Positions 13,001 through 33,436 of a stretch of DNA of 34,525 nt are shown piece by piece; positions within the stretch are counted from its first letter, which is position 1, and every line of letters starts with the position of its first letter. Under the pieces are notes generated by a model. That model was not told the DNA's origin, searched no databases, and worked only from the letters and a program-made list of their open reading frames with translations. Origin of the DNA: a virus. The position numbers and the translations under genes are program-made. The DNA is taken from the IMG/VR virus record IMGVR_UViG_3300037963_001253, positions 1 to 34,525 of that record; one strand, given 5' to 3'.

Positions 13001-16000
13001 CATAACTCTTTTACCATCTTCGTCCTTATAGAAACCAAGCACGTCAGATACATATCCTTTCTTGCCGTTTATCTCTACTAATTTAACACCTTGTTCAAAT
13101 AGTGCTGATGGTATTTGTACTGCTTGTCTTCCACTTATCTTTGGACGAACAACATTCTTTTGTACTATTGAATATAAAATGTTTCGTACTTGATTGTATG
13201 CAGGTGTGCCTTCAATAACAACATCTCCATTTAGGAAACCGTCAAGAGCAACAGATACATTATCATTTGTTTCTCTTTTAAATATTTCTTCACGTAAAGT
13301 TTGAGTTGCTGCAGTTAAATCTTCAACTACTAACTTACCATCCTTCTCCACAATACCTAACCTTTTCATTACGGTATTCATTCCGTCAATAGTTAGTTCA
13401 TCTAGTAATTCTTTGTTTTGATTAGCTAAGTTATATATAGCAGAAGCTTTGAGTCTTTGTTGTTTATTAAGATTCAACCATTCCTCAAGTGACCCTGTAT
13501 AATCTACTGGAACACCACTGTCAAATAAATCTAGAGTTGCTAATTTAGTAATCTGACTAGCTCTTGTAACTCTACCATCATCTTTAGATGGAACCTCTTG
13601 TTGTAAACTGATAGCATTAAATGGTACGTTAATCACATTACTATAAGCAGTGTCATTGAATGATCCGTCTTCATTATATGTTTCATGTAATTCCTCAGCA
13701 CCTACTTTTCTTCCTGACTTATATATTATATAGTCTATGTCTTCACGTTGCATCTTCTCATACAACTTTATATTATTAGATGCAGGATCTAGTTCTTTAA
13801 TTATTCTATATGGTAATGCATACAATGCATATTTATCTAGAACAGGGTTATTAAAAGTTGATAGCACCCCACTTGAATCTAGTTTAGATCCTGATACAAT
13901 AGGTTTAAGTGGTTTATATGCACTCTTAACATCAGGATTACCTTCTTCAAGAAGATCTCTTTCTCTTTGAGTTAATAATTGTTTTTTATCTCTTTTCTCA
14001 TATGCTATATCGTATGCATATTGTTTCTCTTCTTGTGGGTTCCAGTCAGATACTCTTATTCTAAAGTTACGATATGCCTTGAAAGATATAATACCAGCAC
14101 CGTCTGTCTTCTCAAAAGTTTCATAACCAGGTAAATCACTAATGCCTATAACATCTGCATGTGTTGCAGTTTTAAAATAGCTTCTTGTAAAGTCTGTGTA
14201 TCCTATGCTGCCTTCTGCATGATCTCTATTCCATAACTCTTCGGCTTTACTATTCCACATAGTATCACTAGATAATAATTGTCTTGGTGATAAGAAACTT
14301 TTAGAACGTTTAGTTATGTCTTTGTATGCATATGGATCACCATATAATACTTTGTACATCTCCATTTGGTTAAGCACAAAGTTAATTTCTCTATATGATA
14401 ACTTTCTAAACACTTGGTCCTTAGTAAGTCCTGAAAGGTTACCTTCTATTGCAGGTAGGCTATAGGTATCCCTCGTCTCTTCTGGAATGGTTACAATAAT
14501 ATTATTTGCTGTAAGAGTATTGATAGTGGTCTGAGTCTGTTTGTTGGTAAAAGCTAGAAACGCATCTATGATTTGAGTAGCGGATGCATCATAAACTTCT
14601 TCTGCAGTTAAATTATTATCTTGTATATTTTGTTGTACCTCTTGATATAGTTTAGGATCGTACTCATTCAAAATATCTTTAAAAAATCTAAGGTCTTTAC
14701 TATCAAATATAGATTCTACTCTTCTTTCTTGTCTAGCTAAATTTACTTCATCTATAAAATATCCGAATATAATTGTTTGCAGTTGAACTTTTGGACCAAC
14801 CATATCACGCTCAGACACATTATTACCCATGAATAGAGTGTGCTCCATACCGGAATCAGCAGGAACTAAATTCTTATATATACCTTGAAGATTTAGATTT
14901 ATTTCTTGTATTAATGATTCTCTATAGGTAAGCTGAGATGATTTTTTATTTCTACCACTGGACCTGTTTGCTATACCACCTGCATAACCAGGTTTAAATA
15001 GAGGGTCCTCAAAGATATTCTTCTCACCATCTTCATCAAAGTATTTATTTAGGATTACAGAGTTTTTAGAGAATGTATCTGTAACTAAATATCCATATGG
15101 AGTCTGAGATAATTCCTCTAAGGTGTCTACATTTTGTAATGTATTATATATCTCTGAAGGTACATTTGGTCCTATGTGAGTTTGTGTTCTCTCTCCCTGT
15201 ACGTTAAAGAATGTACTGCTTACTTCTGGATTGTCTAGCTTTACTCTAATTACTGCTAGATCCATAAGTCTCTTGTTCATGTTTAATGATTTGGTAGAGA
15301 AGAAAGCTATCTCCTTAGTGTTTGCAATACTAGCTTTAATTCCACTAACTGCAGCATTAAATGATTTCTTTTCATCATAGGATAAACTATTGTACTCTTG
15401 TTGACTGAATATTATTCCTAGATCCTTAAGTAGACTCAATCTGCCACCCATAGTTCCCATATTGTAACTATTAAGTTTTCGTATGTTTGGATTGTACTTA
15501 CCATCCTTTTCTACAAATATTCCTCTACCTTGTCTAGATAAACTTACTATAGAGTTTAAATATCCTTGACGTATTTGACGTGAAGCAGAAGCTATATCTG
15601 CATCACTTACAGATACTTCTCCGTTTTCTAGAATGTTTACTACTTTTACTTGTGGAGATTGTTTCTTAAAAGTTTTAAATAAAGCATCAATTAATCTTAG
15701 TTGATGTTGTTCTGTTATATTCTCTAAACTTACACCACTTGTATAGTCTAGTCCTGTAATACGTTTATATAGAGTTCTATAGTTAGGATCATTTTCAGCT
15801 ATACTTTGTAGCCTAGTCAACATATCTTTTGTGTCAGTAGATGAACTTAAATTATCTAGAAGAGTTACATACACCTGAGCCATAGGTAAGAGCTTCACAC
15901 CATTTACTTTACTAGGAACTCTCTGAGCAAGTCCATTGCTTCCAATAGTTACTCTTGGTACTGTAGCTAACATTAATCTAACAGCTGCATTTGTTTTTCT

Positions 16001-19000
16001 AAACCCATCTATCTTTCTAGCGTCAAAGTTATATCCTTTGTTAGATAGATCATTTTCTACACCCTCCTTATCTACCTGTATAGAGTCATTCTCATCAAAA
16101 GTAATACTGTAAGCTTGTAAATACTCTTGATGTCTTTTTGTAATACTATCCCAGTTCTCTGAGATTTGTGTCATTAAGGTTATTGTTTTTTCTATCAACT
16201 CATCAACCTCTTCTTTGTTCTGCTCATTCTTAATAGAATCATATGCATCGATTTTAACTTTTAGTTTCTCGAGTGCTTTTATCTTTAACTTATCATACAG
16301 TTCCGTCTTATTTATATCTTGATAGTCAAACACACTTTTGTTTTCTAGAAGTAAATCTGTAAGTGTATTATATGTCATGTCTTCTAATAAGTCAACCTGT
16401 ACTTCACCACTTAAATTAGTTACAACTCTAAACACAGCACTAGACTCAGGAATTACCTCTCTTATCTCCCTCATTGCTAAGGCCCTAAAGGTTGGAAGTT
16501 GAGCAAAGTCTCCTGTATCTATTCTATTAAATAACTCATCTCTTAATTCTACAGCTTTCTTCTGAGTAGGATTTATAAACCAACTTTCAATAAAGTTTTT
16601 TAAGCTCTTAAATATTCTAGCTAGAAAACTTTCTTTTGGTTTCTTCTTATCTTGTATATAATCTCTAAACTCTTCTGCTAATTGTTCCCTTATTTCATCT
16701 CGAGTAGCATCTTCAAATTTAATTACTCGTCCACTAGGTCTGTCTACAAAAGTTCCTTTACGAGATCTGAAGGCTAAGTCTTGTTGTATTTTTTCCTTCT
16801 CAGTAAGATACATTGCATAAACAGCTTCGAATGCCTCGTGATATGGTGTACCCACCTCTGCATTTTCATAGACATACATAGCATTGTCTTGGAACATACC
16901 CCATGCAGTTTTTCCTCCTGACCTAATTATATTTTTAACTCTGGCTAAAGGTACTTGAGGTAAGTTTTTTTCCATCCAACTACGAACATCTTTCCAGTTC
17001 TCCTCACTCATCGCTTGAACATCTTTCTCAACCATCTCACGAAGTAAAGGTTGATCTCCTCCAGTCAGTTTTTTGTTTAGCATAGCTTCAACATCAGATA
17101 TAGATGCAGACTTTATTTTACCTTGTTGTTTCTTTTCAAATCTAGCATTATCTTTTTCTGTTTGCTGAGCTATTGCTAAATCTAAAACAGCTTGTCCTGT
17201 AGCAGAAGTAGCTCCTCCCTCTAAAACTTTTCCCGTTTTTAAATTTGTTATGTTTGCTCTATCAAGATTAAAATCAACTGAGTATCTAGTACCTTTATAA
17301 GTTACAGTTTCAACACTACTAGTTTGCTGTGGAGCAGGTTCTTCTTTTTTAGTTACAAGACGTTTAGATCCTGCAGGTCCAAATCTAGCTTCTAGGTCTT
17401 TTTTCTCTTGCTCACTTAATTCAAAGCCTGTTGACATGGCTGTATCAAATGTATTTTGTTTGGCAAGGTTTGGTTGAATAAAGTTATAGATACTAGCCTT
17501 TAGTATTTTTTTACCATCTTTACCTTCAGGAAACTTGTTTAAATACTCTTGTACTTCTTGAGGTCTAAAGTCAACTTTAATTTTTTCTTCATAGTTTTGT
17601 GCTGTTACATCAGAATCAGTAACTACAAATCTAATTCTAGGACCATTTTTAATCTTAAAAAAGTTAGCAGTTTTACCATCAGCAGCATTAAACTGACTTG
17701 ATGTAACTGGTGCAGTTTTAATAAACTCTTTTCTAGGTGGAGTTACTTCTTTTATAATATAGTCATCAATAGTAGATTGATCTACGAAGTATATACCTTT
17801 TCTGTTAACTACATTATCATCAGCTGACTCAAGCTGTGTTGTTAAAGGTATTTCAAAGCTCATTCTCGTTGCTCCCTCAGTTTTTCTATCTACTAGGTCA
17901 ACTACATCAGAAAGCATGAACGACTGATAATTAGGCCACACTATACTTTTTACATTACCCTCTGGTGAGACTGATATTATTTGCTCAAATGGTTGATTTA
18001 TATCCTCTGTATATTGTTTGTTAACATTAATGTACATGTTTTCTAGTGCACCAACGATCAACGACTTGTTTGCTTCTATGTCCTTAGGAGTAAAAGTAAA
18101 CTGTGCAGTAGGACCCACTCTTAAAACTAATTTACTATAGTTAAGTCCTGGGAATCCTTCTACCTCTCTTACAACTTGTCTTTCAAAGAATACACTATTC
18201 TGACCTACATCTTTTCTTTTACCTTGAGCATCTTTTGGTATACCCCAATACGTAACACCCTTTAAGAAGTTTAGTAGTCTTACAGCTTCGTTACTAGTAG
18301 CTCCTGCAACTGTATCTACCACTTCTCTTGAAAGACCGAGTAGTGCATCATATATCGATTCAGCTTCTTCTTTTAAAAACTTTCTATTCTGTAATTTGTA
18401 TAAGCCACTAGGTACATCTAAGTATACACTTCCAAGAGGAGAGTTATATACAGATGTTCCTTTCTCTATAGTTTTGTTTGTAGTAGGAATGTTTAATAGG
18501 ACTTTCTTCTTTAAATCTTTTCTACTAATTAAATCTGCAGAGAAAACACTGTTAGGTTCACCATTCTTATTCATTTCACCAATACCAGAAGAGGCTATTA
18601 TTTCAAAAGGAGAAGGAACCAGTACACGTTCTAGTTGATCTTTATGCCATGCAGCGTATTGTTTAGTAATTTGATCCTTCACTTCTTGTGGTGTGTTCTC
18701 TCTAAACATATCACCATTTCTAAAACCAGGGGCAGGCATAAACTGATAAATAGCTTTATCTAATAATATCTCTCCCTCTGGAATAGGTAAACCATCCACA
18801 CCAACTAAATTACCTGCACTATCGATCATAACCATTGCAATAGCAGTGTCTTTATACTTATCTATAAGTTCTTGATTGTTATCTAAAAGTCTTTCTATTA
18901 CTCCCTCTAATCTTTGGTTCTGAGTTTTGAATGTTACGTATACACCACGAATATCTTTTCTGTTTGGAAACTTCCACAGGTTTGCTCCAAACTGATTTGC

Positions 19001-22000
19001 TCTAACTTGATGATCTTTCTCAGTTTCATTTTTAAAATACTCACTACTACTATCAGGAGCCACTGTAGCTCTAGGTAGCACACTAGTAATCTTCTTTTTC
19101 TCAGGATTAAACTCTTTTGGTTCTGGAAGTATTTGTGGACCAACATACTGAGTTTGATTTAGTGTAGCTATTATCTTAGGATCTTTGGCAATTTTATTTT
19201 GTGCCTGTTTTTCTTTTTTGTGATCCTCCATGATTCGATTAAAGCGATCCACTATAATTTTCTTAGCATTCTTCTCTTGATTAAGAGATTCAATACTTTT
19301 TGTAATCTGATCAGCTTCCTGTAAAATTTTAGCCAATGCTTCCTCAGATATATTTACGTCTCCTGATACATCATTGGTTAAGTTAAAATCTGCAAGAGCT
19401 TGTTTAATTAGAGGCCACGTTTGTAATAAGTCAGCATCTTTTTCTAGAGCTGCATCTATAACTTCCTTAAGTCGCATGTTATCATTCTGATCAAAGAATG
19501 CAGTTGTATTTATGAAAGACTTTAAAGTTTTAATTGCAGACTTGATAGTCTTCTTAACATCTCTAAGAAGATCATTATTAGCTTTTTGTTCTTTGGCTAG
19601 CTGTTTACCTTGTTGTTCTAGAAGCTTTACCTGATCTTGTAACTCTTTTAAGAATACTCCGGTATTACCTGGTAGATCCAGTAGGTCTTTTCCGAAGTCA
19701 CTAAAGTATGAAATATTAAATGCAAGTTCTTCTTGTTGTGCTTCTGCTTCTTTTATACGCTGCTCTGTATCAGCCTGCATCTCAGTAAGCTTATTGATAG
19801 CTCTAGTAAAGTTTTTTTGTGCTTTGGAGAAGTTTAGTGTTACTCTTTTTCTTCTTCCATCTTTCATGATTTCAATGTTCTTGAAATCTTCTTTTATCTT
19901 AGCTAACTTTTCTTTGTCCTTTCTTATTTGTTCAGTAAGTTCTTCTAATCTTCTTTGCTGTTCTACACCAAGATCGTTTAATATTTGTACTCGACTTTCC
20001 CTATTCTTTGCTAGAGTCTGTTCACCTTTAGCTAGTTCCTCAGGACTTAGAAAGTCTTTCTCTGATTTCTTTTGTGCATCAGAAAGCTTACCTATCTTTT
20101 TAATCCTAGGTTGATTAAATCCTTCTTGGGGTAAGAAGAACTTGTTAGCTAATTCTTTTTTGAATAAGTTTCCGTTGAAGTCTTTGTATACAAAATACAG
20201 CTTATCATTAATGTAAGCTAGTCTTCCTTGCTTCTTGCCTCCAAAGTTTTTACCAAAGTTAAATTCAAACAGATCATTTCTGTGGTTGTAATAGTAGTTA
20301 GCTGTTTTGTTAGTAGCAAGATTAGCTTTTGCTGACACTTTAAAGTCTAGTAATTTTTCAGGAGAAAAATCTTTTATTTGACCATTGTCAGTTTTAACTC
20401 TTATAGTGCCATCTTCATTTTGATTAAGCAGTGTAAAGCCAGCAACAACTACAGGCTCGGTTAAAGGAGATTCATTAAAGTCTACTCCCTGTCCTACAAA
20501 GTATTCTCCTCCTATTACTAACGTTCTACTACCACCTTTTGTTTTTACTACAATTGTATCTACATTATCTGCTAAATCTTCTGGAGCTTTAGCCATAGGT
20601 TCTTCTCTAAACTGGTCTGGATTCTCTTGAATGTTTTGATACTCTTGTATATACTTTTCTCTTAACTTAGCAAGAGCAGCTAAGTCTTGAAGACCTTTAC
20701 CAAGTTCATCTTTTACTTCAGTGATAGCATCTAGATTTGTTATTATATCATTAGCCTCATTAAAACTTTGTGATTCGTTGTTTAGTATGTCTGTTATGAT
20801 CTGATCAAAGTTTACGTTAGGTAATCCTTGACTTAACTCTTGTATTAAGTTTTGAATCTGTGTGTCTAATGATGCGGTAGATACTCCTGTATAAATTAAC
20901 TTGTCTATAACTGAAGGAGTGTACACTGCTTCAAACTCTCCTGTAACTGGGTTTTGTCTTGTTATTCCTCCGTATCTAAGCATTAGTGATTGGTAAAGAC
21001 TTGATGTATTTTCAGCAACCTTTTCAAGGTTTTCCATACGTCTTATATATGCCTCTCTTGTATCACCCTCCTGCACTTTACCTTCAGATTGTAGTTGAGC
21101 AAATCCTTCTTCTGTAGAAGCTAGTTTCTTTGCATCAGCTATATCTTGTTTTACTAAATCATATCTACCATACTTTATTCTAGGTGTTAGATAATTTATT
21201 ATAAAATCTTTTTCTAGTTGCTTGTATGTAAATTCATCTCCATTCTGAGCTGCTTGTTGCATCTCCTCAATGATTACACCTGCTCTGTTTACAGCATACA
21301 TGGTTTCTTTGGTAAAGTCAGATAGTTCAAAGTTATTTATTTCTTCTACTGCTTGTTGTGTATTTGCAGCCTTTGCTCTATCTCGTGCTAACATTCCTCT
21401 GAATGTCATAATTCTACCTGAGATACCACCAATCAATGCATTCTTAGCTCCTTCATCAGAGAAGACTCCATCTGTTAGTCCCACTCCTAATGACTCTAGC
21501 CAATCTGTAGCTTGGTTATTATATTGTTTATTGTAGTAATCTTTGGATGCTACTGCAGCTCCATACTGAAACGCCTCCTCAGAAGCCTCAGTTACAGAAA
21601 ATGTATAGGGTCTAATTTTATTTATTGATCTTAATAAAGGATGAAGCTTAGATGTTTTTGGAACAAGTCTACCACCTTTATATACTAATTCATTTGTTTC
21701 TCTGGTAAGATTATTTAACACTGTCTTATCTCTACCAAACCCACTACGTCCGATCATAGGAAACATGATATAGTTACTTGCACTTAATACAGCTACATTC
21801 ATTGCGTAAGATGAATTACCTGCACCTTCTGCAGCCATGTTGATTCTATTTAATGCTTCTCCCGTAGGTGCTATACCAAATTCATTTTTGTAATCACCTA
21901 TAAGCTGATCTCTATAATCATTCATGTTGTGAAGAGCTTCTATACTAGCTTCACCACTTGTAGCTAAACCTGCAACTAAAAATCTACCTCCTGGATTTAA

Positions 22001-22846
22001 CAGGTTATACTGATTTAAAAAATTATCTGATAACTTTTTTACTTCACCGTATACACCAGCTCCTCTATTAGTAGCTTTTAATCCTTTTTCTGTAGCTTGT
22101 AATGTTTCTGCAGCTTTACCAGTAGAAAATAGACGAGAAGTTAAAGGAAGAGCTCTTAGAGCAGATGCATAAGCCAGACCTGAATAATAGGCACCAGCTG
22201 CAAATCCTAAGTTCTTAATAACTCCATCCCACAAGAAGTTACCTGTAGCCCAGTATTGAGGGGAGTACCAACTTGCGTTAAGTTCTTCGTTTGTATAATA
22301 ATTAGGGAGTTGATTTTCTAAATACTTGTTTATGTTATCTAGTTCTCTATTAAAGTCGTTGTCATAAAAAGAAGAAAACTTACCAGTGTTAGCCCATTGA
22401 TACAGACCATTCACAGCACCCACAGTACCTTGTAAGAAAGTAGTAAGAGCTAAGGATCCTCCTTTTAAAACACCGTTAACAGCTTTCTCTCCCCATCCTT
22501 GATATTGAGCAGCTACATCTTCATTGTTAATGCCCATAGAAGATGGTTGGAAATAATCATATCTACCAGCACCATCTAATTCATCTTCAGTAACAACTCT
22601 ACCTCCCATTCTTTGTTCTTCAGATATACCAGCATTTATGACAATGTCTGCAAAGTTACTTCTTCCAGCTCTACCTGGTTGTATACCAAACCCTCCTGGA
22701 GGTAATGTAGATATACTACGAGGAGTCTCCTGTAAAGGAGCAGGAGTATAGGTACCAAACCTTGGTTGCACCATAGGTGGCTGAACAGTTGGCTGTATAG
22801 GTGGTATGTTGGCCCCTGTCTGAGCTTTCTTTTTAACTTTATTCAT
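10025..22846 (-). CDS. Giant virion RNA polymerase protein of crAss-like phage (4273 aa)
   Basis: A single 12.8 kb frame. The N-terminus is Pro-rich and starts with K-K-K-A-Q-T-G. Hydrophobic segments at about 122-150 and 208-236 could insert in a membrane during ejection. A long coiled coil spans about 930-1105. At 2003-2007 is H-E-A-F-E, a zincin-like motif with the second His changed to Glu. At 3319 is R-I-P-T-Q-A and at 3358-3362 D-F-D-I-D, matching the order of the RxPT and metal-binding DxDxD motifs of two-barrel RNA polymerases (beta-prime, QDE-1/YonO and the known crAss-like phage virion polymerase). The usual fourth residue Gly is Ile here. crAss-like phages inject such a polymerase to transcribe early genes. 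The protein is far longer than a minimal polymerase of this family, so it is probably a fusion of ejection and polymerase modules. It is coupled to the genes on both sides (3-base gap upstream, TAATG downstream). Confidence 0.82.
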   Translation of the reverse strand: MNKVKKKAQTGANIPPIQPTVQPPMVQPRFGTYTPAPLQETPRSISTLPPGGFGIQPGRAGRSNFADIVINAGISEEQRMGGRVVTEDELDGAGRYDYFQPSSMGINNEDVAAQYQGWGEKAVNGVLKGGSLALTTFLQGTVGAVNGLYQWANTGKFSSFYDNDFNRELDNINKYLENQLPNYYTNEELNASWYSPQYWATGNFLWDGVIKNLGFAAGAYYSGLAYASALRALPLTSRLFSTGKAAETLQATEKGLKATNRGAGVYGEVKKLSDNFLNQYNLLNPGGRFLVAGLATSGEASIEALHNMNDYRDQLIGDYKNEFGIAPTGEALNRINMAAEGAGNSSYAMNVAVLSASNYIMFPMIGRSGFGRDKTVLNNLTRETNELVYKGGRLVPKTSKLHPLLRSINKIRPYTFSVTEASEEAFQYGAAVASKDYYNKQYNNQATDWLESLGVGLTDGVFSDEGAKNALIGGISGRIMTFRGMLARDRAKAANTQQAVEEINNFELSDFTKETMYAVNRAGVIIEEMQQAAQNGDEFTYKQLEKDFIINYLTPRIKYGRYDLVKQDIADAKKLASTEEGFAQLQSEGKVQEGDTREAYIRRMENLEKVAENTSSLYQSLMLRYGGITRQNPVTGEFEAVYTPSVIDKLIYTGVSTASLDTQIQNLIQELSQGLPNVNFDQIITDILNNESQSFNEANDIITNLDAITEVKDELGKGLQDLAALAKLREKYIQEYQNIQENPDQFREEPMAKAPEDLADNVDTIVVKTKGGSRTLVIGGEYFVGQGVDFNESPLTEPVVVAGFTLLNQNEDGTIRVKTDNGQIKDFSPEKLLDFKVSAKANLATNKTANYYYNHRNDLFEFNFGKNFGGKKQGRLAYINDKLYFVYKDFNGNLFKKELANKFFLPQEGFNQPRIKKIGKLSDAQKKSEKDFLSPEELAKGEQTLAKNRESRVQILNDLGVEQQRRLEELTEQIRKDKEKLAKIKEDFKNIEIMKDGRRKRVTLNFSKAQKNFTRAINKLTEMQADTEQRIKEAEAQQEELAFNISYFSDFGKDLLDLPGNTGVFLKELQDQVKLLEQQGKQLAKEQKANNDLLRDVKKTIKSAIKTLKSFINTTAFFDQNDNMRLKEVIDAALEKDADLLQTWPLIKQALADFNLTNDVSGDVNISEEALAKILQEADQITKSIESLNQEKNAKKIIVDRFNRIMEDHKKEKQAQNKIAKDPKIIATLNQTQYVGPQILPEPKEFNPEKKKITSVLPRATVAPDSSSEYFKNETEKDHQVRANQFGANLWKFPNRKDIRGVYVTFKTQNQRLEGVIERLLDNNQELIDKYKDTAIAMVMIDSAGNLVGVDGLPIPEGEILLDKAIYQFMPAPGFRNGDMFRENTPQEVKDQITKQYAAWHKDQLERVLVPSPFEIIASSGIGEMNKNGEPNSVFSADLISRKDLKKKVLLNIPTTNKTIEKGTSVYNSPLGSVYLDVPSGLYKLQNRKFLKEEAESIYDALLGLSREVVDTVAGATSNEAVRLLNFLKGVTYWGIPKDAQGKRKDVGQNSVFFERQVVREVEGFPGLNYSKLVLRVGPTAQFTFTPKDIEANKSLIVGALENMYINVNKQYTEDINQPFEQIISVSPEGNVKSIVWPNYQSFMLSDVVDLVDRKTEGATRMSFEIPLTTQLESADDNVVNRKGIYFVDQSTIDDYIIKEVTPPRKEFIKTAPVTSSQFNAADGKTANFFKIKNGPRIRFVVTDSDVTAQNYEEKIKVDFRPQEVQEYLNKFPEGKDGKKILKASIYNFIQPNLAKQNTFDTAMSTGFELSEQEKKDLEARFGPAGSKRLVTKKEEPAPQQTSSVETVTYKGTRYSVDFNLDRANITNLKTGKVLEGGATSATGQAVLDLAIAQQTEKDNARFEKKQQGKIKSASISDVEAMLNKKLTGGDQPLLREMVEKDVQAMSEENWKDVRSWMEKNLPQVPLARVKNIIRSGGKTAWGMFQDNAMYVYENAEVGTPYHEAFEAVYAMYLTEKEKIQQDLAFRSRKGTFVDRPSGRVIKFEDATRDEIREQLAEEFRDYIQDKKKPKESFLARIFKSLKNFIESWFINPTQKKAVELRDELFNRIDTGDFAQLPTFRALAMREIREVIPESSAVFRVVTNLSGEVQVDLLEDMTYNTLTDLLLENKSVFDYQDINKTELYDKLKIKALEKLKVKIDAYDSIKNEQNKEEVDELIEKTITLMTQISENWDSITKRHQEYLQAYSITFDENDSIQVDKEGVENDLSNKGYNFDARKIDGFRKTNAAVRLMLATVPRVTIGSNGLAQRVPSKVNGVKLLPMAQVYVTLLDNLSSSTDTKDMLTRLQSIAENDPNYRTLYKRITGLDYTSGVSLENITEQHQLRLIDALFKTFKKQSPQVKVVNILENGEVSVSDADIASASRQIRQGYLNSIVSLSRQGRGIFVEKDGKYNPNIRKLNSYNMGTMGGRLSLLKDLGIIFSQQEYNSLSYDEKKSFNAAVSGIKASIANTKEIAFFSTKSLNMNKRLMDLAVIRVKLDNPEVSSTFFNVQGERTQTHIGPNVPSEIYNTLQNVDTLEELSQTPYGYLVTDTFSKNSVILNKYFDEDGEKNIFEDPLFKPGYAGGIANRSSGRNKKSSQLTYRESLIQEINLNLQGIYKNLVPADSGMEHTLFMGNNVSERDMVGPKVQLQTIIFGYFIDEVNLARQERRVESIFDSKDLRFFKDILNEYDPKLYQEVQQNIQDNNLTAEEVYDASATQIIDAFLAFTNKQTQTTINTLTANNIIVTIPEETRDTYSLPAIEGNLSGLTKDQVFRKLSYREINFVLNQMEMYKVLYGDPYAYKDITKRSKSFLSPRQLLSSDTMWNSKAEELWNRDHAEGSIGYTDFTRSYFKTATHADVIGISDLPGYETFEKTDGAGIISFKAYRNFRIRVSDWNPQEEKQYAYDIAYEKRDKKQLLTQRERDLLEEGNPDVKSAYKPLKPIVSGSKLDSSGVLSTFNNPVLDKYALYALPYRIIKELDPASNNIKLYEKMQREDIDYIIYKSGRKVGAEELHETYNEDGSFNDTAYSNVINVPFNAISLQQEVPSKDDGRVTRASQITKLATLDLFDSGVPVDYTGSLEEWLNLNKQQRLKASAIYNLANQNKELLDELTIDGMNTVMKRLGIVEKDGKLVVEDLTAATQTLREEIFKRETNDNVSVALDGFLNGDVVIEGTPAYNQVRNILYSIVQKNVVRPKISGRQAVQIPSALFEQGVKLVEINGKKGYVSDVLGFYKDEDGKRVMEVMVGRWFNSSLSDKDLLDYLNNTEEGQKALRGVAFRIPTQAQNSIDSIKIKQFLPREFGDQVVVPEALVKKVGSDFDIDKLFMYFKNMYYRFGELQTVPYFGKGEEAKAKIEELWEDGALLTKSQQQQLNEQIELFRDGGDVTDSLIFEMFGEVLLEEDVKDDFMLDLSEKGIKQTVVDRLYTQSLENEYIETLQNLIELPENFERLSAPNDASQLENISKEIVTKRFGEPFDYEKVSNLLNSQFTSRLRYSFVAGKKGIGVAAVNQVNLALLQSIPVLVPAINIPFASKNNVDINQSVVLNEGTEFEYTIDKWVSISGRKNANGEFISKINGQFIDGYVDIAGGPWIMELGATPQTAPTWLYLIRAGVPIKVVADFMNQPIVQDFIREVNNRGYSYLGNRSIRDGLLSSPKYDIGRELTKKEQDEIDTGKEINESMLSKMVGKKQFTDKEKLQQRKIIFSFQNVYQQAREIFTLTQGLNWDTSTFNDPMLVFKKQMQYAAANKLYNIGFVAYDLSTNSITSIPEAVMNNTFVGETLKSIIKSREGISNFLKSDQLRSRSVLENTLMPWVLRTFDKEFIKISRRAVNSLFDYVIQTNGQLNTLLSQYLLENDGKNVAARVEKFVDDVLSDASHPLYNNQVIRMLEINPSKRPGNTPINLQLRNNETKTYDQNSVIFGFEQIRNFLGDDSLYKDIVITAVLQSGLDTSPISFTSLLPYEDFKNLYNSSLSNLENISNLNNFYELGMFQRNNWSDGSIVPTIKAPTVTFQGRGGSTRFQNNPGMEWLPKNVKSQIAKGKIPQVVQLPLSFETLGNDYIVYTWPNKTFTAKERKEMALRGDFSFINKGLFVKTRQQNPDGTPGLPYTVEVPRKSGDDIEMFVYKHINALGDGFRAQEYYETSRPSVFDNGLLKAEERKDEDIIEVFESKPAKGKDERSTAERPWLTTMQGNMVRLGKVPNQIFTKEQITSQMLSEIGYNEDQIGQILKTVCKS
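12647..13099 (-). other. RNA polymerase catalytic region (R-I-P-T and D-F-D-I-D)
   Basis: Residues about 3250-3400. R3319-I-P-T is followed 39 residues later by D3358-F-D-I-D (codons at 12761-12775), inside G-S-D-F-D-I-D-K-L-F. The three aspartates would bind the catalytic magnesium. The upstream stretch (F-E-Q-G-V-K-L-V-E-I-N-G-K-K-G) might contain a beta-like barrel lysine, but that is uncertain. Confidence 0.8.
16652..16864 (-). other. Degenerate zincin-like module in the RNA polymerase protein
   Basis: Residues about 1995-2065. G-T-P-Y-H2003-E2004-A-F-E2007-A-V is followed about 50 residues later by L-A-E2058-E-F-R-D-Y. The arrangement matches phage zincin-like domains of the form G-T-x-x-H-E-x-x-H with a downstream Glu, except that the second His is Glu. 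Catalytic Glu is kept. It may be inactive or may bind metal in another way. Confidence 0.55.
19532..20059 (-). other. Long coiled-coil segment in the RNA polymerase protein
   Basis: Residues about 930-1105 are rich in E, K, Q and L with heptad-like spacing (R-L-E-E-L-T-E-Q-I-R-K-D-K-E-K-L, later L-K-E-L-Q-D-Q-V-K-L-L-E-Q-Q-G-K), with a short G-N-T-G break near 1060. It separates the N-terminal hydrophobic part from the catalytic parts. Confidence 0.65.
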
Positions 22847-25596: not shown

Positions 25597-28500
25597 TTAT
25601 CCTCCAAGAGCATCGTTGTAAGTCATATTTTTAAAGTTTCTTACAACGTTACTATTTTTCTGATTTCTTTTTATTCTTTTTAGTTTAGTTCCATACAGGC
25701 CTGCAGGTACTTCCGTAGTGGTTGTATCTGTAGTAAGCACCTGTCCTCCTCCTATTCCTCCTCCTGTAAATATATCAAAGAGGTTCGAGTAAGGGTTAGT
25801 TACACCGGGTATTGAGAAATAAGCTGGAGGTCCTACGTTTACCATTCTACCCTCAGCATCAAAACCATATTGTGGATATAGATTTTCAAGAACTCTTTCT
25901 CTTATGTTTTCTAATTTATTCTTTTGATATTTATCCGATATAGATTTTGCGATCTCAAGATTAGTTGCTTTAGTATTAGCTACAGCTTGAGCTTGTCTTG
26001 TTTGTTGTTGATCTAATATTCCAAGATTAGTTAGTCTAGCTTGGTTGAGAGTATCTATGTTACCACTATATACAGTGTCCTTCATTTCTTGATTAGCTCT
26101 GAACTCAGCTGCATTCACTTTATTTATAGCTTCAAATGCTGGAGCTTGTAAAGCTGCAAGAGCTGCTGGATTGTTTTGTACAGCTGGGTTTTGTTGTAGG
26201 GACCTTTGGAAACTATTAATATCGTTTCTCTCATCTTGGAAACTAATATCATAAGGCACTCTCAGTCTAGGTTGGAATGTTTGTGCATACACAGGATCAA
26301 CTTGATTTTGTGATGCAGCTAACATCTCAGGTAGAATCTGATTGTAATCTAAAGTGTTCATAGGTCTTCTTCTGAGTTGTCTACCTAAACCTATAAGATC
26401 AGTAAGTATATTTCTTTTACTAGGTGGAACTGTTTCTTCCTCTGTAGTAGATGGGTCACCACCTCCTATAGTAGCAAAGACCTTTTTAGTTTTAGGATCT
26501 TTAGCCTCTACAGCTTCAGTGAATCTAGCACTTGCAGTTTCTTTTCCAATTATACCATCTACTGTTAGGCTTACGTCAATACCTGCATCTTTATTTCTTT
26601 TATTGAATTCTCTTTGGAATCTTTTTACATCTTCTGGTTTTCTACGATCAAAGTTATCCCAATTAAACCAAGTATTTTCTGTTACAAGTTTTTCATAGTC
26701 TGCTTCAGTTACACCACCAGCTAAGCCTGTCTTACTATCATACTTCTGGTTAGCAGGCATTTTACCTATATCAGAACCAGTAGCATCTACACCCTCTACT
26801 TCTTCTTGGATCTCTACTTCTTTAACAAATGTACCATCATCTTGTTTGACATAACCTGCTTCAATTGCTTCTGCTTCTGTAGCAAACTCTTCTGGTAATT
26901 CATTTAAATCGAGACCTTGATCTTGATTAGTATTTTGTTGACCATCTCCTTGTGCTTTAGGTACATCTACACCATCTTTACCTTTCACCATCTTACCTAT
27001 TCTTTGAGCTTGACTCTTATGCATCTTGGAAGCTTTGTGTAACTCTTTCTCTATTTTCTTGAGTTTCTTCACCTTTGTTCCATCTTCTGCATAATCTTCA
27101 ATGTCTTTAACATCTTTTACTATTTCACCTTTGTTGATAAATTTGTTTCCGTCTATACCATACTCATCAAATGTATCATTAAGTGCAGTTTGTACATCAG
27201 ATAGAATCTTCTTTTTGTTTGCTATAGCTTTTAGTTTCATGTCTGCACCAGCTATAATAGCATCAGATGTGCTTCTTACTATCTCACCCCATGGAGTATC
27301 ATCTGAGCCTCCTGCTTTTTCAACTGCTTTTTTCATATCAAAATTTACTTTACTTTCTTCGTTGTTAAGTTCATTTACATAAGTTTTGAACTTCTTACCT
27401 TTGGCATTACTATCGCCAATCTCAGCAACATAATCGTTTGGTATTTTTAAATCTCCAAACACTACCAGACTTTCTTTTGAACCTCCGTCTTTTAGCTTTT
27501 GTGCTGGTTCATTCTCTACCTCAACTACTGCTTCATTCATAGCAACAGACTGTGGTCCATATGCTACACCTATACCAGTTTGTCCAGTTTTAGGATCTTT
27601 CTTTTCATGAGAGTTACCTTCAAAATATATACTCTCACCACCAGCATACGGGTTATAAGATACTGCTTTTGCTTCACCACCCCATACAGTTTTGATGTCA
27701 GGGTCTTTTAGTTTTCCTCCTTTTTTTAAAGTGTCTGGCATTCTAGAAGCTTTTTGCAACATGTTGTTTAAGTTCTTACCATCAAATGTTTTTAAGATTT
27801 GTGGACCTGGTGCTCCTATCATTCCATAGTCATTATTAGGGCCAGGAAGTTTACCACCTTTTTTCATGTACGATGAAAAACCTGCTTGTACTGCAGGGGC
27901 CATATTTGCTAATGTCATTTCTTCAACATTTGAGTCAATCCTTTCTCTAGCTTGTTTTTGCTTCCTGTCATTTCTATCTAGTAGATCACCAACACCACCA
28001 AGAACAAAAGACCCAACAGCTCCACCAACTGGTCCAAATAAAGCTGTACCTACAGCTCTACCAATACCACTACCTATATCTGTTCCAGCATCTCTATTTG
28101 CTTTATTACCAAAAGCAATAGAAGAAAGTTCATCAGAAACCATTTGATAAGGAAAATCCCCACCCTCTTGAAACTGCTTTGCTTTGTTTACATTGTACAG
28201 AGGAACATATCCAGGATCACTAAATAGATTCATACCATCTTGAGCTCTTACACAACTACCTTTACTGTATGGTGTCTTGCCAGGAACTGCTCTATAACCT
28301 GGCCAACATCTACCACCTTTCTGAAACTTTGCTCCACTCTTTGCAAGAACGTTTGTGCCCACTCCATATATAGGAAAGAACTCCTCTCCTGTGTTTTCTA
28401 CATCTTCAGGGCGTACATATTTTCTTTCTTCCATTTCTGGTTTAGAAAGAGCAGCAGAAAGTGCAACGTTACTAACTGCTTGCATTTGTCTAAGCTGTTG

Positions 28501-29310
28501 AAGGTTTTCTCTTTGTTGTTTGATTTTACCAATACCTCTAACAATATCTCCAACAACAGGAGCACTCTTAAGTTGATCTGCAAGTTTTCCACCAAAAGAT
28601 ATATCACTTGCATCTTTGTTTCCTCTTCTTAACTTTCCTGCATCATCAAGTACATAAGATACTCCATCTGGATCAGCACTACTGGATATTCCTTCTTCTG
28701 GAATGTCAAATCCAAGATCAACATATTCAGCAAATTCTTGAGTTCCCCCTTGTGCTTTCTTTGGTTTCTCATGAGTGTACCCCAACTTACTCATTCTTTC
28801 ATGATCAGCTTTTTTATTAGCTTTATATGCTTTACCAGTCTTAGGATCATACATCATGTGTGGCTCAAACTTCATGACTTTTTTACCCTTTTTACCAGAT
28901 CCAGCAATTAAGTTTGCTGCCATCTCCATATTTTCTGGTGTCATTAGACTACTTAACATATTTCCACCTCCACCTTTTCCAGAGTTCTGATAGGCTTGTA
29001 ACTTCATCATTCTGTCAGTGTAAGCTTTTTCTTCATCATCTGTAGTAAATGCTGACACTCCCATCTCAAGAGCTTTGTCTTTAAGTGGAGAGAAAATTGA
29101 TAGAGTGTTACCTTCTATCTCACTAAAGTCTACAGGACTAACATTACTAGGAGCTGTAACATCTCCTGATATCATTGTTCCTATCTGAGCTTTCTTAAGC
29201 TTAGCTAATTGTTTTCCATGTTTTTTCAAGAAAGCTTCCTCTGTGGGGAACTTCTTGTAGAATTCTTTTTCAGACTTTACGCCTGCTATTTTTAATATTT
29301 GAGCCTTCAT
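25597..29310 (-). CDS. Modular virion protein with peptidoglycan-binding-like domain (1237 aa)
   Basis: The start M-K-A-Q-I-L-K-I lies one base after the stop of the upstream gene. The protein is a string of modules separated by Lys/Gln/Gly motifs: K-A-Q-I-G (40-44), K-A-Q-G-G (185-189), F-Q-K-G-G then C335-W-P-G-Y ... G-S-C353, R-A-Q-D-G (355-359), F-Q-E-G-G (about 380), K-K-G-G-K-L twice (about 490 and 530) and K-A-Q-G-D (785-789). Between about 400 and 460 is a Gly/Ala-rich stretch (G-P-V-G-G-A-V-G-S-F-V-L-G-G) that could be membrane-active. Residues about 885-935 resemble a PG_binding_1 domain (F-Q-R-E-F-N then T-V-D-G-I-I-G-K-E-T). The C-terminal third is Gln/Asn-rich and helical. Likely role: ejected or internal virion protein acting at the host envelope (inference). 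Confidence 0.78.
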   Translation of the reverse strand: MKAQILKIAGVKSEKEFYKKFPTEEAFLKKHGKQLAKLKKAQIGTMISGDVTAPSNVSPVDFSEIEGNTLSIFSPLKDKALEMGVSAFTTDDEEKAYTDRMMKLQAYQNSGKGGGGNMLSSLMTPENMEMAANLIAGSGKKGKKVMKFEPHMMYDPKTGKAYKANKKADHERMSKLGYTHEKPKKAQGGTQEFAEYVDLGFDIPEEGISSSADPDGVSYVLDDAGKLRRGNKDASDISFGGKLADQLKSAPVVGDIVRGIGKIKQQRENLQQLRQMQAVSNVALSAALSKPEMEERKYVRPEDVENTGEEFFPIYGVGTNVLAKSGAKFQKGGRCWPGYRAVPGKTPYSKGSCVRAQDGMNLFSDPGYVPLYNVNKAKQFQEGGDFPYQMVSDELSSIAFGNKANRDAGTDIGSGIGRAVGTALFGPVGGAVGSFVLGGVGDLLDRNDRKQKQARERIDSNVEEMTLANMAPAVQAGFSSYMKKGGKLPGPNNDYGMIGAPGPQILKTFDGKNLNNMLQKASRMPDTLKKGGKLKDPDIKTVWGGEAKAVSYNPYAGGESIYFEGNSHEKKDPKTGQTGIGVAYGPQSVAMNEAVVEVENEPAQKLKDGGSKESLVVFGDLKIPNDYVAEIGDSNAKGKKFKTYVNELNNEESKVNFDMKKAVEKAGGSDDTPWGEIVRSTSDAIIAGADMKLKAIANKKKILSDVQTALNDTFDEYGIDGNKFINKGEIVKDVKDIEDYAEDGTKVKKLKKIEKELHKASKMHKSQAQRIGKMVKGKDGVDVPKAQGDGQQNTNQDQGLDLNELPEEFATEAEAIEAGYVKQDDGTFVKEVEIQEEVEGVDATGSDIGKMPANQKYDSKTGLAGGVTEADYEKLVTENTWFNWDNFDRRKPEDVKRFQREFNKRNKDAGIDVSLTVDGIIGKETASARFTEAVEAKDPKTKKVFATIGGGDPSTTEEETVPPSKRNILTDLIGLGRQLRRRPMNTLDYNQILPEMLAASQNQVDPVYAQTFQPRLRVPYDISFQDERNDINSFQRSLQQNPAVQNNPAALAALQAPAFEAINKVNAAEFRANQEMKDTVYSGNIDTLNQARLTNLGILDQQQTRQAQAVANTKATNLEIAKSISDKYQKNKLENIRERVLENLYPQYGFDAEGRMVNVGPPAYFSIPGVTNPYSNLFDIFTGGGIGGGQVLTTDTTTTEVPAGLYGTKLKRIKRNQKNSNVVRNFKNMTYNDALGG
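26506..26658 (-). other. Peptidoglycan-binding-like domain (PG_binding_1 type)
   Basis: Residues about 885-935 of the 1237-aa protein. V-K-R-F-Q-R-E-F-N is followed by L-T-V-D-G-I-I-G-K-E-T-A-S-A, the standard order of this three-helix fold (helix with F-Q, then x-V-D-G-x-x-G-x-x-T). It may hold the virion protein at the host cell wall. Confidence 0.7.
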
Positions 29311-29311
29311 A

Positions 29312-32300
29312 TTAGTTGTATTTGTCTAACCAGCCGCCTGGTTGTGGGGTATTATAGTTTGTAAAGTTAGTTAATTGATCTAAGGTGACCAAAGATCTTC
29401 CCTGTTTTGCTGTCATTGTTTGTTGTTTACTGTCCTGATTTACAGCTGCTATACTGTTCATTAGTTCAATAAGAGCTTCATCTGATTCCACGCTATCTTC
29501 TAAATCTTGGAAGCGTGCATTGTTTTTTATCCTGAAATTCTTTCTTGCTTTATCAAGATCTTCTTGAGTAAATGTATCTTTTCTTGCATCATATATACCT
29601 TGATCATTTAACAGATAACGCAACTCTTGCATTCTACCTAACACTTCTGTTGGTTGTGTGTAGTAATATTCTTGTTTGGGTAAACCCAGTGAATTATCTT
29701 TTGTACTACGGAACATAAGATCTTTTGTAGACTGTGGTATTCTCTCACCTCCTTCATCAGCCGCATGAGCAAACTCATGTATAGGTGTAGTATTGTAACT
29801 AAATAGAGGATTCTCTGGTGTAAGTGCAGAGTATTCAGGTCTAAACTGAATATTTTTATTACCGAAACGATTGTAAACTCCTTGTATGTCTTGGTTGCTT
29901 GTAGAGTATTCACTTGATTCAGGTAGGAAACTTACACGTGTTTGCATTACATTGTTTAATCTAGTCTTTGCTTCTTCTGCTATTTGCTTATCTGTATAAT
30001 CAGGAAACTCTTTCTTTAATCTATCTTGATACTTTTGAGAGTTCATGTAACTCTTTAAGAATTTATATTGTTCTACTCCTTCTTTATTTAAACCACCACC
30101 CTCTTGTGCATAGGCCATATTAGAAGGACCAGAAGATTGACTGTTATCTGATATAGTATTTAAGAGCATATTTATTTCATCATCTGAATAAAGTTTCTTT
30201 AGATCTTGATACTGCTCGTTTATCTTCATGGTCTCTTGCATCTCAGGTGTAACCTCTGAATCAAAGATACTAGGCAATCCTTTTGCTTTTCCTCCTAGTT
30301 GCGGTTCTGTTTCATAAAAATATCTTATAGCATTTAATCTTGCTCTAACTTCTGAAGGATCTCCTATATATTTTAAGTCCTTAACCTCACCTTTACTTAG
30401 TTCATTAGTATTCTTTTTATTTCTAATGTTAGTTTTATTAAGACTGTTAATTAGTTTAACATCTGATAGAGGCATGTTTAATTTTGCAAAGTTATTATAC
30501 TTACCACCGTAATCTTGAGAATGTGATAGTTCATGTAACAATACATCATCCGGTCCTTTACCTATATATTTTGCTTCTCCATCATAGTTACTTGAGTCCA
30601 TTTGAATACGATGAGGTCCTCTATTGTATCTACCTAAGAAATTACCATCAGCTTGCTCAATTTTAACATTATCAAGAAAAGTATTTCTCTTAAAAGTTCT
30701 ATCATCTATAAGTCTTTGATTTCCTTTAAAACTATTACTTAATAACTCTTGACCTCTATTAGACATGTTCCAGTTCTTTAGAAACTCTATCTGTTCTGAT
30801 GCATCAATTGTTTCTCCCTCTTGAGCCATAGGATACTCTGTAACAGAGTTACCATCAAACTTGTAATCTTTACCTGGTAGCATCATCTTCTTGTCACCAG
30901 TGTCAGATATTCCTAGCACAGGAAAGTCTACTCCTTTCATTGTTATGTTGTTGGAGTTTATTTTAGTTATCTTTCCTGGGTTGGTTAACTGTCCCATGTC
31001 ATCTTCTATCACTTCATACTTATCTAACCATCCTCCTGTTTTAAAAGTTTTATATCCCCCTTCTATACCTTTCTCTTGTGCTTCTCTCTGACTCTCTAAA
31101 AAAGATTCTCTATTACCTTCTGACTCTATAAGTTTATGTCCGTCTAACCAAAGATCTATTAGATCTATTTCACCTTTTGGATATTTTGCTAATTGTGCTG
31201 GACCTTCTAGCATGTTTACATAGAATAAAGTATACTGATCTTTTAATGATAGCTCATCTGCTGATTTAGCATTCAAGATGTTAGGATTAACATCCACACC
31301 CATTACATTAGCAACAGTCTTGTATCTGTTTTGTGCTGTAATAAATGAAGGACCTTCAAATTGAAACACACCTCTACCTGGACCTTTAGGATATTGTCTA
31401 GCTTTTGGGTTCATTCTTTGTCTAGGACCAGACTCATGAAAAGCTATTGTGTCTGCAACCGCTCCCCATGTATCTCTATCACCACCTCTGGTTTTCACTA
31501 CATAGTCTAGTACATTATCAAATCCTAAAACTTCTCCGTTCTGTGCTTTACCACCATGTTTATACTCTAATAGTCCTTGTGCATTATATCCCATTGGTAT
31601 TGCAGCATATAATCCTTTCATTAATTTCTTTAATCCTTTTTTATCTACTACTCTGAAGAAGTCTGAAGCTATTGGAGTTCTACCACCAAGCCCATCTCTA
31701 AATATTTGTTCAATTAACTTATCTGGTATATCATATTGTTTATTAGTTCCCCAGTATTTTGGGTTAATGTATAGCCTTCTCAACTCCATCACTCTCGCAA
31801 CCATTTCTGTAGGATCTTGTAAATACTTTGCATAGTCCTCAAAAGTTGAACCAGGTCCCAGAAAGTCTTCAATACTTTTATTAGTCCCTTTAAGTATTTT
31901 TGGATCTCTTTTAAGTGCTCCTTTAATTAACTCTTTTGCCTCAGTACTTAAAGCTCTTCCACCTATATTACTAGCATGACCAAGAGTTTCATGTATACCT
32001 GTTAACATCTCCCTTGTTCTCACTATCTCCTTTAATCTATTGGAAGCTCTTGGGGAAACCTCTCCAAGCTTTACAACACTCTTGTTACCTATACTTGCAG
32101 CATCATCAAATGTTTTTAAAGTATTTAAAGGTTGATTAGCAGTAGGTACATAATATGTCCCACCTGATCCAGGTGTAAATCCTGCACTACTATATGTAGT
32201 GGGAAACTCACCAGCCTGTATTGCTTTTATGTTTTGCCTTGCTAATCCTGGATAGTACAGATTGTACATCTGATTTATTTCCATTGTAAGATCATCAATT

Positions 32301-33436
32301 TGCTGTTGGAGATACCTAGATTTAGGAAGAGCGTTTTGTAGTCCTGCTACTTCATATTTAGCTAATTCACTTTGTAATGTTTGTAGTTGTCTAGTTCTAG
32401 CTGCAATTGTTGATTCAATGTACTCTGGTCTAAGAGAAGGTAAAGGATTATATGGTCTAATCTGAGACTCAAATCTCGCATTAAACCCTGGAGCATTGGT
32501 CCAGCTTTTCATAAAATTATCTGCATCCATCTTAGGATTACTCATAAGTCTATTTGGAGGACCTGATGTTCGGTTAAAAATCTGAGGAACAACAGTGTCT
32601 CTTCCTATAGGAGCAGCACTAGGATTAAAGAAGTTTTTAAATGTATCACTTACCGCTTGACCTAGTTTAGTATTTTTCAAATAACTATAAGCACGAGCAC
32701 CACCAACATTAAGCAAAGCAAACGCTGTTTCAGGAAGTGCTTGTTTTAAATTACCATATAGTTGTTCTCCCTTAGTAATTTGACCTCTTTGATATTGTAG
32801 TTTTCTATTGTTGAGTTGTCTTGCCACCTCATCACTAGTAAAGAAGTTTCCGGTAATAGGTTGAAAGTTATCATAAGGACTAAAATAATTACCTACTGGA
32901 ACCACTGTAGCATTGTATACATCACCTATTAATCTAAAAGGATTAGCTAGATAGGTAAGAGGCATTGCATTCATTGGAAGACTGGTATCATCTTCTTGTA
33001 TTCTCTGTAGTGATTCATTTCCTCGTGGTCTTCCTTGTGATATCATAGGTTGCCTTCTTCTAGGAGCAGTCACTACAACCTCATCTAACTGTTGTAAACC
33101 TTCAGTAAAAGGAAACTTAGGAGAATCAAATCTTTCAATAGTAGGAATGTTAACTCTTGTACTATCTATGGCTACTGGTTTTCCACGTTGAGCTTTCATT
33201 TCAGATTGTGTGTACAAAGGCTCTGGAGTATTTGTACGTGCATACATCATACCAGATGCACCAGGAAGTGTACCTCCCATTGCATACTTGTCTAACCAAC
33301 CACCGTTGATCTTTTTCATAGGCGTAGCACCTCCAGCTATAGCACCGAAGTATCTCTTCTGCTTATCAGTCAGAGCTCTCCCATGGACAGTTCCGTCTTC
33401 TAACATCTTTTTTGCTTTGCCTGCTGTTAATGCCAT
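29312..33436 (-). CDS. Multidomain virion enzyme with three zincin-like modules and a lysozyme-like domain (1374 aa)
   Basis: The ATG at 33436 overlaps the upstream TAA (TAATG). The N-terminus has a motif set common in Bacteroidota phage proteins (L-T-D-K-Q-K-R-Y-F-G-A-I-A-G-G-A, then G-G-W47-L-D-K-Y). Order of modules: an undefined region with a Tyr-rich coiled part (60-450); zincin-like 1 with H482-E-T-L-G-H487 and P-T-E544; a lysozyme or transglycosylase-like domain with H-E668-S-G, M-N-P-K-A and G-x-G-V-F-Q-F (about 636-770); G-G-W803-L-D-K-Y; zincin 2 with H968-E-L-S-H972-x-x-D and P-S-E1029; zincin 3 with H1220-E-F-A-H1224-x-x-D and P-T-E1264; and a final G-G-W1369-L-D-K-Y. The modules start at A-Q-x-G motifs. 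Probable role: peptidoglycan and protein cleavage at entry, or virion maturation (inference). Confidence 0.82.
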   Translation of the reverse strand: MALTAGKAKKMLEDGTVHGRALTDKQKRYFGAIAGGATPMKKINGGWLDKYAMGGTLPGASGMMYARTNTPEPLYTQSEMKAQRGKPVAIDSTRVNIPTIERFDSPKFPFTEGLQQLDEVVVTAPRRRQPMISQGRPRGNESLQRIQEDDTSLPMNAMPLTYLANPFRLIGDVYNATVVPVGNYFSPYDNFQPITGNFFTSDEVARQLNNRKLQYQRGQITKGEQLYGNLKQALPETAFALLNVGGARAYSYLKNTKLGQAVSDTFKNFFNPSAAPIGRDTVVPQIFNRTSGPPNRLMSNPKMDADNFMKSWTNAPGFNARFESQIRPYNPLPSLRPEYIESTIAARTRQLQTLQSELAKYEVAGLQNALPKSRYLQQQIDDLTMEINQMYNLYYPGLARQNIKAIQAGEFPTTYSSAGFTPGSGGTYYVPTANQPLNTLKTFDDAASIGNKSVVKLGEVSPRASNRLKEIVRTREMLTGIHETLGHASNIGGRALSTEAKELIKGALKRDPKILKGTNKSIEDFLGPGSTFEDYAKYLQDPTEMVARVMELRRLYINPKYWGTNKQYDIPDKLIEQIFRDGLGGRTPIASDFFRVVDKKGLKKLMKGLYAAIPMGYNAQGLLEYKHGGKAQNGEVLGFDNVLDYVVKTRGGDRDTWGAVADTIAFHESGPRQRMNPKARQYPKGPGRGVFQFEGPSFITAQNRYKTVANVMGVDVNPNILNAKSADELSLKDQYTLFYVNMLEGPAQLAKYPKGEIDLIDLWLDGHKLIESEGNRESFLESQREAQEKGIEGGYKTFKTGGWLDKYEVIEDDMGQLTNPGKITKINSNNITMKGVDFPVLGISDTGDKKMMLPGKDYKFDGNSVTEYPMAQEGETIDASEQIEFLKNWNMSNRGQELLSNSFKGNQRLIDDRTFKRNTFLDNVKIEQADGNFLGRYNRGPHRIQMDSSNYDGEAKYIGKGPDDVLLHELSHSQDYGGKYNNFAKLNMPLSDVKLINSLNKTNIRNKKNTNELSKGEVKDLKYIGDPSEVRARLNAIRYFYETEPQLGGKAKGLPSIFDSEVTPEMQETMKINEQYQDLKKLYSDDEINMLLNTISDNSQSSGPSNMAYAQEGGGLNKEGVEQYKFLKSYMNSQKYQDRLKKEFPDYTDKQIAEEAKTRLNNVMQTRVSFLPESSEYSTSNQDIQGVYNRFGNKNIQFRPEYSALTPENPLFSYNTTPIHEFAHAADEGGERIPQSTKDLMFRSTKDNSLGLPKQEYYYTQPTEVLGRMQELRYLLNDQGIYDARKDTFTQEDLDKARKNFRIKNNARFQDLEDSVESDEALIELMNSIAAVNQDSKQQTMTAKQGRSLVTLDQLTNFTNYNTPQPGGWLDKYN
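29582..30082 (-). other. Zincin-like metallopeptidase module 3
   Basis: Residues about 1119-1285. It contains H1220-E-F-A-H1224-A-A-D-E-G-G-E and Q-P-T-E1264-V-L-G-R-M-Q-E-L-R, with the upstream half (F-L-K-S-Y-M-N-S, V-Y-N-R-F) resembling module 2. The motif is complete and could be active. Confidence 0.7.
30302..30811 (-). other. Zincin-like metallopeptidase module 2
   Basis: Residues about 876-1045. E-F-L-K-N-W at its start aligns with K-F-L-K-S-Y in module 3. The H968-E-L-S-H972-S-Q-D motif is complete, and D-P-S-E1029-V-R-A-R follows 60 residues later as a candidate third ligand or structural Glu. Confidence 0.7.
31127..31531 (-). other. Lysozyme/transglycosylase-like domain
   Basis: Residues about 636-770. 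I-A-F-H-E668-S-G-P, then R-M-N-P-K-A, then G-P-G-R-G-V-F-Q-F-E, the order of SLT-type and related lysozyme-fold domains (catalytic Glu in E-S-x, N-P-x-A, G-x-x-Q-F). It probably cuts peptidoglycan during DNA entry. E668 would be the catalytic acid. Confidence 0.65.
31757..32029 (-). other. Zincin-like module 1 (divergent)
   Basis: Residues about 470-560. G-I-H482-E-T-L-G-H487-A-S-N is followed by D-P-T-E544-M-V-A-R-V-M-E-L-R-R-L, the same layout as modules 2 and 3. The two His are five rather than four residues apart, so metal binding is doubtful. Confidence 0.55.

Follow-up and report, generated by a model that had tools for sequence, protein, structure and literature searches.

Genes at the locus

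The window, meaning the whole 34,525-nucleotide stretch of DNA analyzed here, belongs to a virus record of 111,707 bases (IMGVR_UViG_3300037963_001253, or G000). The virus is crAss-like: its portal, TerL and MCP are all of crAss type, with PHROG matches of 2.7e-92, 1.9e-83 and 7.6e-37, respectively, which places it in Crassvirales, and its portal aligns with crAss-like portals at ~25% identity over 95-98% (tblastn). Marine relatives of the proteins encoded in the cargo block occur in the Cellulophaga phages phi4:1, phi17:2 and phi14:2.

The gene for the 1237-aa protein P0002 (25597..29310, minus strand) fits the gene order tail-tip, cargo 1, cargo 2, RNA polymerase proteins, and by this position P0002 is the counterpart of Crassvirales cargo protein 1 (gp45). 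The tail-tip ('muzzle'-like) protein of 2254 aa lies outside the window at record positions 34480-41244 and is the positional counterpart of the crAss001 muzzle; two extra genes, one for a 290-aa protein and one for the modular 1374-aa protein P0001 (29312..33436, minus strand), separate it from P0002. The positional counterpart of cargo protein 2 (gp46), the 886-aa protein P0004 (22850..25510, minus strand), lacks the motif pattern described below and serves as a negative control. P0003, a 4273-aa protein encoded at 10025-22846 on the minus strand, is the presumed virion RNA polymerase. At residue 2002 it reads HEAFEAV, and crAss001 gp47 has a similar HEAFHVV (HExxH); compared by sequence, the zincin-like site of P0003 seems to be degenerate, while P0001 carries intact zincins. 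Positions 1-4716 of the window encode a protein of at least 1572 aa that consists mostly of collagen-like SGTSG repeats and runs off the window. In the structural block outside the window (record positions 48934-51234, minus strand) there is a trypsin-like domain (PHROG 20754 'protease', E 2.5e-13), which is fused to a Ser/Thr-rich, variable C-terminal part.

From its N- to its C-terminus, P0001 comprises a KAK mini-module, a first zincin-like segment (HETLGH), a lysozyme-like module, zincin 2, zincin 3 and a terminal GGWLDKYN (29315..29338; this and all features below are on the minus strand). The two zincins already named in the earlier note do contain HExxH, as HELSH at residue 968 (zincin 2, 30521..30535) and HEFAH at residue 1220 (zincin 3, 29765..29779), and HETLGH lies in a third, zincin-like segment upstream of both. 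With HELSH, HEFAH and a conserved downstream Glu/Arg pattern, P0001 has the zincin signature of polyvalent proteins of the MPTase kind. The lysozyme-like label has no Pfam support at E<=0.1. GGWLDKY is found at the C-terminus of P0001 and of most homologues whose natural end is covered, and it recurs within P0001 at residues 45-51 (33284..33304), followed by AMGG, and at residues 801-807 (31016..31036), where alignment places the end of the lysozyme-like module. The P0001 homologue of phi14:2, gp081, is annotated as a structural protein detected by MS/MS. The N-terminal mini-module of P0001, KAKEMLRDGTVHGKPLTDKQKRYFGWIAGG, recurs in diverse phage contigs (L047-L056), mostly with GG peptides on both sides.

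P0002 resembles gp45 of PhicrAss001 (PF25725) as a cargo-type virion protein that is encoded after the tail-tip gene and in the xxGG peptides, many of which flank the resolved anchor segments of gp45. It differs in using the AQxG dialect and has no significant profile match. PF25725 (crAss_CARG1) is matched by the crAss001, cr108 and bajarodcaudo proteins, but P0002 has no Pfam match to it at E<=0.1, and hhalign of P0002 with gp45 gave a probability of 3-4%, with one short, non-significant match in the C-terminal helical part. Homology between P0002 and gp45 is thus unproven, and structural inferences are carried from one to the other by analogy only. Sequence searches of the PDB returned gp45 itself or chance matches, and AlphaFold models of P0001 600-1374 (pLDDT 41) and P0002 320-960 (pLDDT 38) were too poor for fold searches. 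A mini-module of P0002, MMYDPKTGKxYKA..ADHxRMxxxGYTHEKP, is also present in L038, a Kyanoviridae hypothetical protein (Methylophilales phage Melnitz-3), there without a GG border.

A short peptide concentrated in virion-block proteins

The earlier note listed a short A-Q-x-G motif in P0001, P0002 and P0003, and every listed site was found at its residue. In P0001 these are KAQRG at 81-85 (33182..33196); KAQNG at 630-634 (31535..31549), aligned with the start of the lysozyme-like module; MAQEG at 870-874 (30815..30829), which by alignment precedes zincin 2; YAQEG(G) at 1109-1113 (30098..30112), between zincins 2 and 3; and the variant AKQG at 1343-1346 (29399..29410), at the right border of the zincin 2+3 block. 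P0002 has KAQIG at 40-44 (29179..29193), KAQGG at 185-189 (28744..28758), the inserted cassette FQKGG-RCWPGYRAVPGKTPYSKGSCV-RAQDG defined by alignment (28234..28326; FQKGG at 329, RAQDG at 355), FQEGG at 380-384 (28159..28173) and KAQGD at 785-789 (26944..26958), in which K-A-Q is invariant in four homologues. P0003 has KAQTG at residues 7-11 (22814..22828). Most of these sites conform to A-Q-x-G, although AKQG and KAQGD are off pattern. Likewise, the three proteins are indeed carriers, but a fourth had been overlooked: the tail-tip protein, with KAQKG at residue 23.

The significance of these occurrences was assessed with composition-preserving shuffles, comparing the four motif proteins (9,138 aa) with the remaining 26,422 aa that the called genes encode. 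[KRMY]AQxG occurs 9 times in the four large virion-block proteins against 0.4 expected, and AQxG 10 times against 2.2. In the remaining called genes the counts are about those of chance (AQxG, 5 vs 3.8 expected; [KRMY]AQxG, 1 vs 0.6), and the latter reads 2 if KAQYG in an uncalled 107-aa Lys-rich ORF (record positions 98475-98798) is included. The scrambled or reversed patterns G.QA, QA.G and A.QG are not enriched in the motif proteins. The K-A-Q-x-G motif is real, non-random, conserved and concentrated in virion-block proteins. It is not a general cargo tag, as had been suggested, given that the cargo protein 2 (P0004) family lacks it and the tail-tip protein, which is not internal cargo, carries it. 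We found no description or function of the motif in the literature (searches covered open-licence papers), and no mention of a border motif of Crassvirales cargo protein 1 in the literature and database records consulted.

The uncalled ORF belongs to a group of three neighboring small Lys-rich proteins (173, 98 and 107 aa; record positions 97633-98798) with repeats such as KAKSGTKKGMVRKTARKAYMKK, KAQYG and MKKGGK, which are possibly DNA-binding internal proteins.

Modules are gained, lost and exchanged at the motif

Comparison of related phages bears out the proposal that the motif marks module borders. The lysozyme-like module, which extends from KAQNG to KTGG, is present in P0001 and L016 and missing from L017, L021 and L019. 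In the P0001 homologue of L019, zincins 2 and 3 are deleted exactly between EYPM and KQGG. Differing whole-module inserts occupy the interval between GGWLDKYQxGG and KxGG, the two GGs of the first GGWLDKY copy, in L016 and L017. The same NIPLKTxNxxGELERLTYPSSV module comes after YAQEG in L017 and after MAQGG in L021. In P0002 a 30-aa Cys cassette (RCWPGY...GSC) is inserted between border motifs, as FQKGG-RCWPGYRAVPGKTPYSKGSCV-RAQDG, and it is missing from this location in L014, L017 and L020; at other places, border motifs also enclose it in P0001 homologues, namely those of L016, L017 and L019. Beyond these relatives, a GG-bounded block that contains the barrel-bound segment (214-245) of crAss001-type cargo 1 is missing from DAC15, Dulem 41 and cr111, and the predicted phage lysozyme (PF18013) of the bajarodcaudo cargo-1 protein lies between FQEGG and KAFGG.

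In order to quantify this association, in-frame indels of >=20 aa were scored as motif-associated when their ends lay <=8 aa from a motif, with motif residues masked in the alignments, and were compared with 1000 simulated placements. Indel ends lay near the motif in 36 of 72, 14 of 22 and 32 of 52 cases in three families, against 12.1, 5.6 and 15.0 expected, and in each family none of the 1000 simulated placements reached the observed count; as indel events share ancestry, these simulation counts are strong indications rather than exact probabilities. When the data were pooled, 32 of 100 events had a motif at both ends of the indel, where 6.9 would be expected. The control dipeptides SG, AG, GA, SS, KK and others of this kind were at or near expectation in the pooled test, and DG, GI, KG and GS showed smaller excesses, to which overlap with the motif may contribute.

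At the first P0001 border, K-A-Q-x-G is retained in nine of nine homologues, which were chosen for having AQxG there (L046 has none), and the flanks on both sides vary. Across 49 motif sites, Ala, Gln and Gly are encoded by a mixture of codons. What is conserved within the variable flanks is thus the amino acids of the motif and not its codons.

AQxG as one form of a wider peptide

Judged from the sequences compared, AQxG is a local dialect of a wider peptide, [F/Y/A]-[A/Q/K]-x-G-(G), in crAss-like cargo-type proteins. The border between zincins 2 and 3 reads YAQAGG in phi4:1 and AAMGG in phi14:2. In P0002 and 16 other cargo-1-position proteins, mostly of Crassvirales, [FY]xxGG is found 50 times against 9.1 expected, and in 13 cargo-2 proteins 0 times against 2.1 expected. 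The position profile of AQxG sites has P at -5 and K/M at -4, that of GG sites F/Y at -3, A at -2, W at +2 and L at +3, and the two share the same register. The GGs at 427/428, 447 and 562/563 of gp45 are among ~50 columns that are invariant in 11 cargo-1 proteins, and in distant phages GG peptides flank the KAK mini-module. In cargo 1 of DAC15 (L029, ~187-315), an FTxYCGGKVTxxCI mini-module is tandemly duplicated between GG border peptides.

The motif also stands alone near protein N-termini. In addition to KAQTG in P0003, the presumed virion RNA polymerases of the six relatives whose protein start was seen (L017, L020, L042, L043, L044 and L046) carry an AQxG that starts at residue 8 or 10. 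Relatives have AQKG or SQKG close to the N-terminus of the tail-tip protein (SQKG in L017).

A proposed joint or docking peptide, and alternatives

We favor the interpretation that the motif is a protein-level joint or docking peptide and that being cut by the encoded zincins is not its main role, and we would put the chance that this is correct at about even. A structural guide is crAss001 gp45, in which the barrel-bound segment 214-245 and the portal-bound segment 425-552 were resolved by cryo-EM, the latter folded into a compact domain (PMC10172136). The portal-bound segment, which corresponds to Pfam crAss_CARG1 (424-555), has AFGG at its start and includes three GG copies (GG pairs 427, 434 and 447), and GG copies at 209 and 263 flank the barrel-bound segment. 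Because the portal-bound segment is resolved across them, these copies are probably not cut in the virion. By analogy, the motif could be an exposed joint that docks on a shared partner in the virion, for which the portal wing, the tail barrel or the cargo-1 cable would be candidates. Docking would hold each module extended and ordered for ejection, and a module with the peptide at both ends could drop in without any redesign of assembly contacts. Against this interpretation, at KAQIG of P0002 the Q is replaced in most relatives, which have AAVG or AEVG. More tentatively, the peptide may be a general connector, in which peptide-flanked modules are strung on the ejected cargo cable, the polymerase and the tail-tip protein are docked likewise, and the clade-specific AQxG is perhaps cut by a dedicated trypsin-like protease after ejection.

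Alternatively, the proteins could be polyproteins with the motif as their cleavage site, processed either while the head matures or once they have been ejected. The fixed and free positions of the motif resemble a protease site, and the modules it separates are autonomous. The zincins encoded here had been put forward as candidates for the protease, and for the injected polyvalent proteins of phages and conjugative elements processing by fused zincins has been proposed (PMC5512222). However, L019 has lost zincins 2 and 3 and keeps the motif, and the complete genomes of crAss001, DAC15, Carjivirus, crAss002 and cr126 contain no homologues of the P0001 zincins, although the wider GG motif abounds in their cargo protein 1. 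Therefore, the zincins are not the general protease of the motif, and we reject them in that role.

The remaining protease candidate is the trypsin-like domain of the structural block, which could cut between Q and x. Gln at P1 (AQ|xG) would suit some PA-clan proteases. Seven clade members have this serine protease with an invariant His/Asp/Ser triad, and the domain is absent from crAss001, DAC15, Carjivirus, crAss002, phi14:2 and phi4:1, six genomes in which the GG dialect is the main form and AQxG occurs sporadically; nevertheless, this co-occurrence amounts to a single clade event. The leader of the tail-tip protein ends in the motif and crAss001 has no such leader, but a cut 7-13 residues from the start of the RNA polymerase or, at the other end of P0001, 6-8 residues from its C-terminus would not free any module. 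What has been published on crAss001 tends to speak against a cut that is obligatory: the resolved part of gp45 runs through three GG copies (PMC10172136), and virion bands of 150, 270 and >300 kDa suggest large proteins that are not extensively cut (PMC6235969), although the argument from the gel is weakened by the few motifs in the large proteins behind these bands. Overall, we regard cleavage at the motif as less likely than docking, but as a serious competitor.

We likewise doubt that the motif is a passive linker, in which Gly-rich turns tolerate insertion and recombination so that modules accumulate without any recognition of the peptide. Indels do associate with GG peptides and glycine is flexible, but breakpoints show hardly any excess of other dipeptides typical of linkers, and the residues specified extend beyond glycine to K, A, Q and P, or to F/Y and A. 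Furthermore, neighboring large cargo proteins lack the motif, and it stands alone at N-termini, where a copy links nothing and therefore speaks against a pure linker. Finally, a DNA-level recombination site or mobile cassette end, retained as a crossover point, could account for the RCWPGY cassette at different borders in two proteins, but it is highly improbable and largely refuted by the mixed codons and by cassette copies that are only 77-84% identical in DNA.

Relation to known systems and significance

P0001 resembles the polyvalent proteins (PMC5512222), which are giant and multidomain, combine zincin with lysozyme modules and exchange their modules rapidly; no shared border peptide was seen in the text consulted on them, whereas here the motif persists without zincins of the P0001 type. 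For contractile injection systems, DUF4157 has been considered as a core domain of effectors (PMC13277306), and for this reason zincin-like folds may be loading domains rather than proteases. A small DUF4157 protein with HELGH is encoded in crAss001 (gp4, NC_049977 1145-1537).

Double-glycine cleavage sites are known from adenovirus, ASFV and C39 leader peptidases, with a GG-containing recognition sequence. In contrast, no such protease has been identified here, and uncut copies are resolved in crAss001. In T4 and in the SPN3US ejection proteins, the signals for prohead-protease cleavage and for capsid targeting (PMC5694885, PMC10052503) are likewise short motifs, and they control how internal virion proteins are loaded or matured. 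Such sites are of the glutamate type and a dedicated capsid protease acts on them, whereas the peptide here is A-Q-x-G or A-x-G-G, is present in many copies per protein and is also found in a tail protein. The prohead protease family was not found among the few genes of the virus record that were scanned.

Crassviruses are the dominant human gut viruses and eject several megadaltons of protein. A conserved border peptide predicts module boundaries in giant proteins that are otherwise unannotatable, and points to possible places of contact between cargo and virion. Whether the peptide is docked or cut becomes a direct question for peptide mapping.
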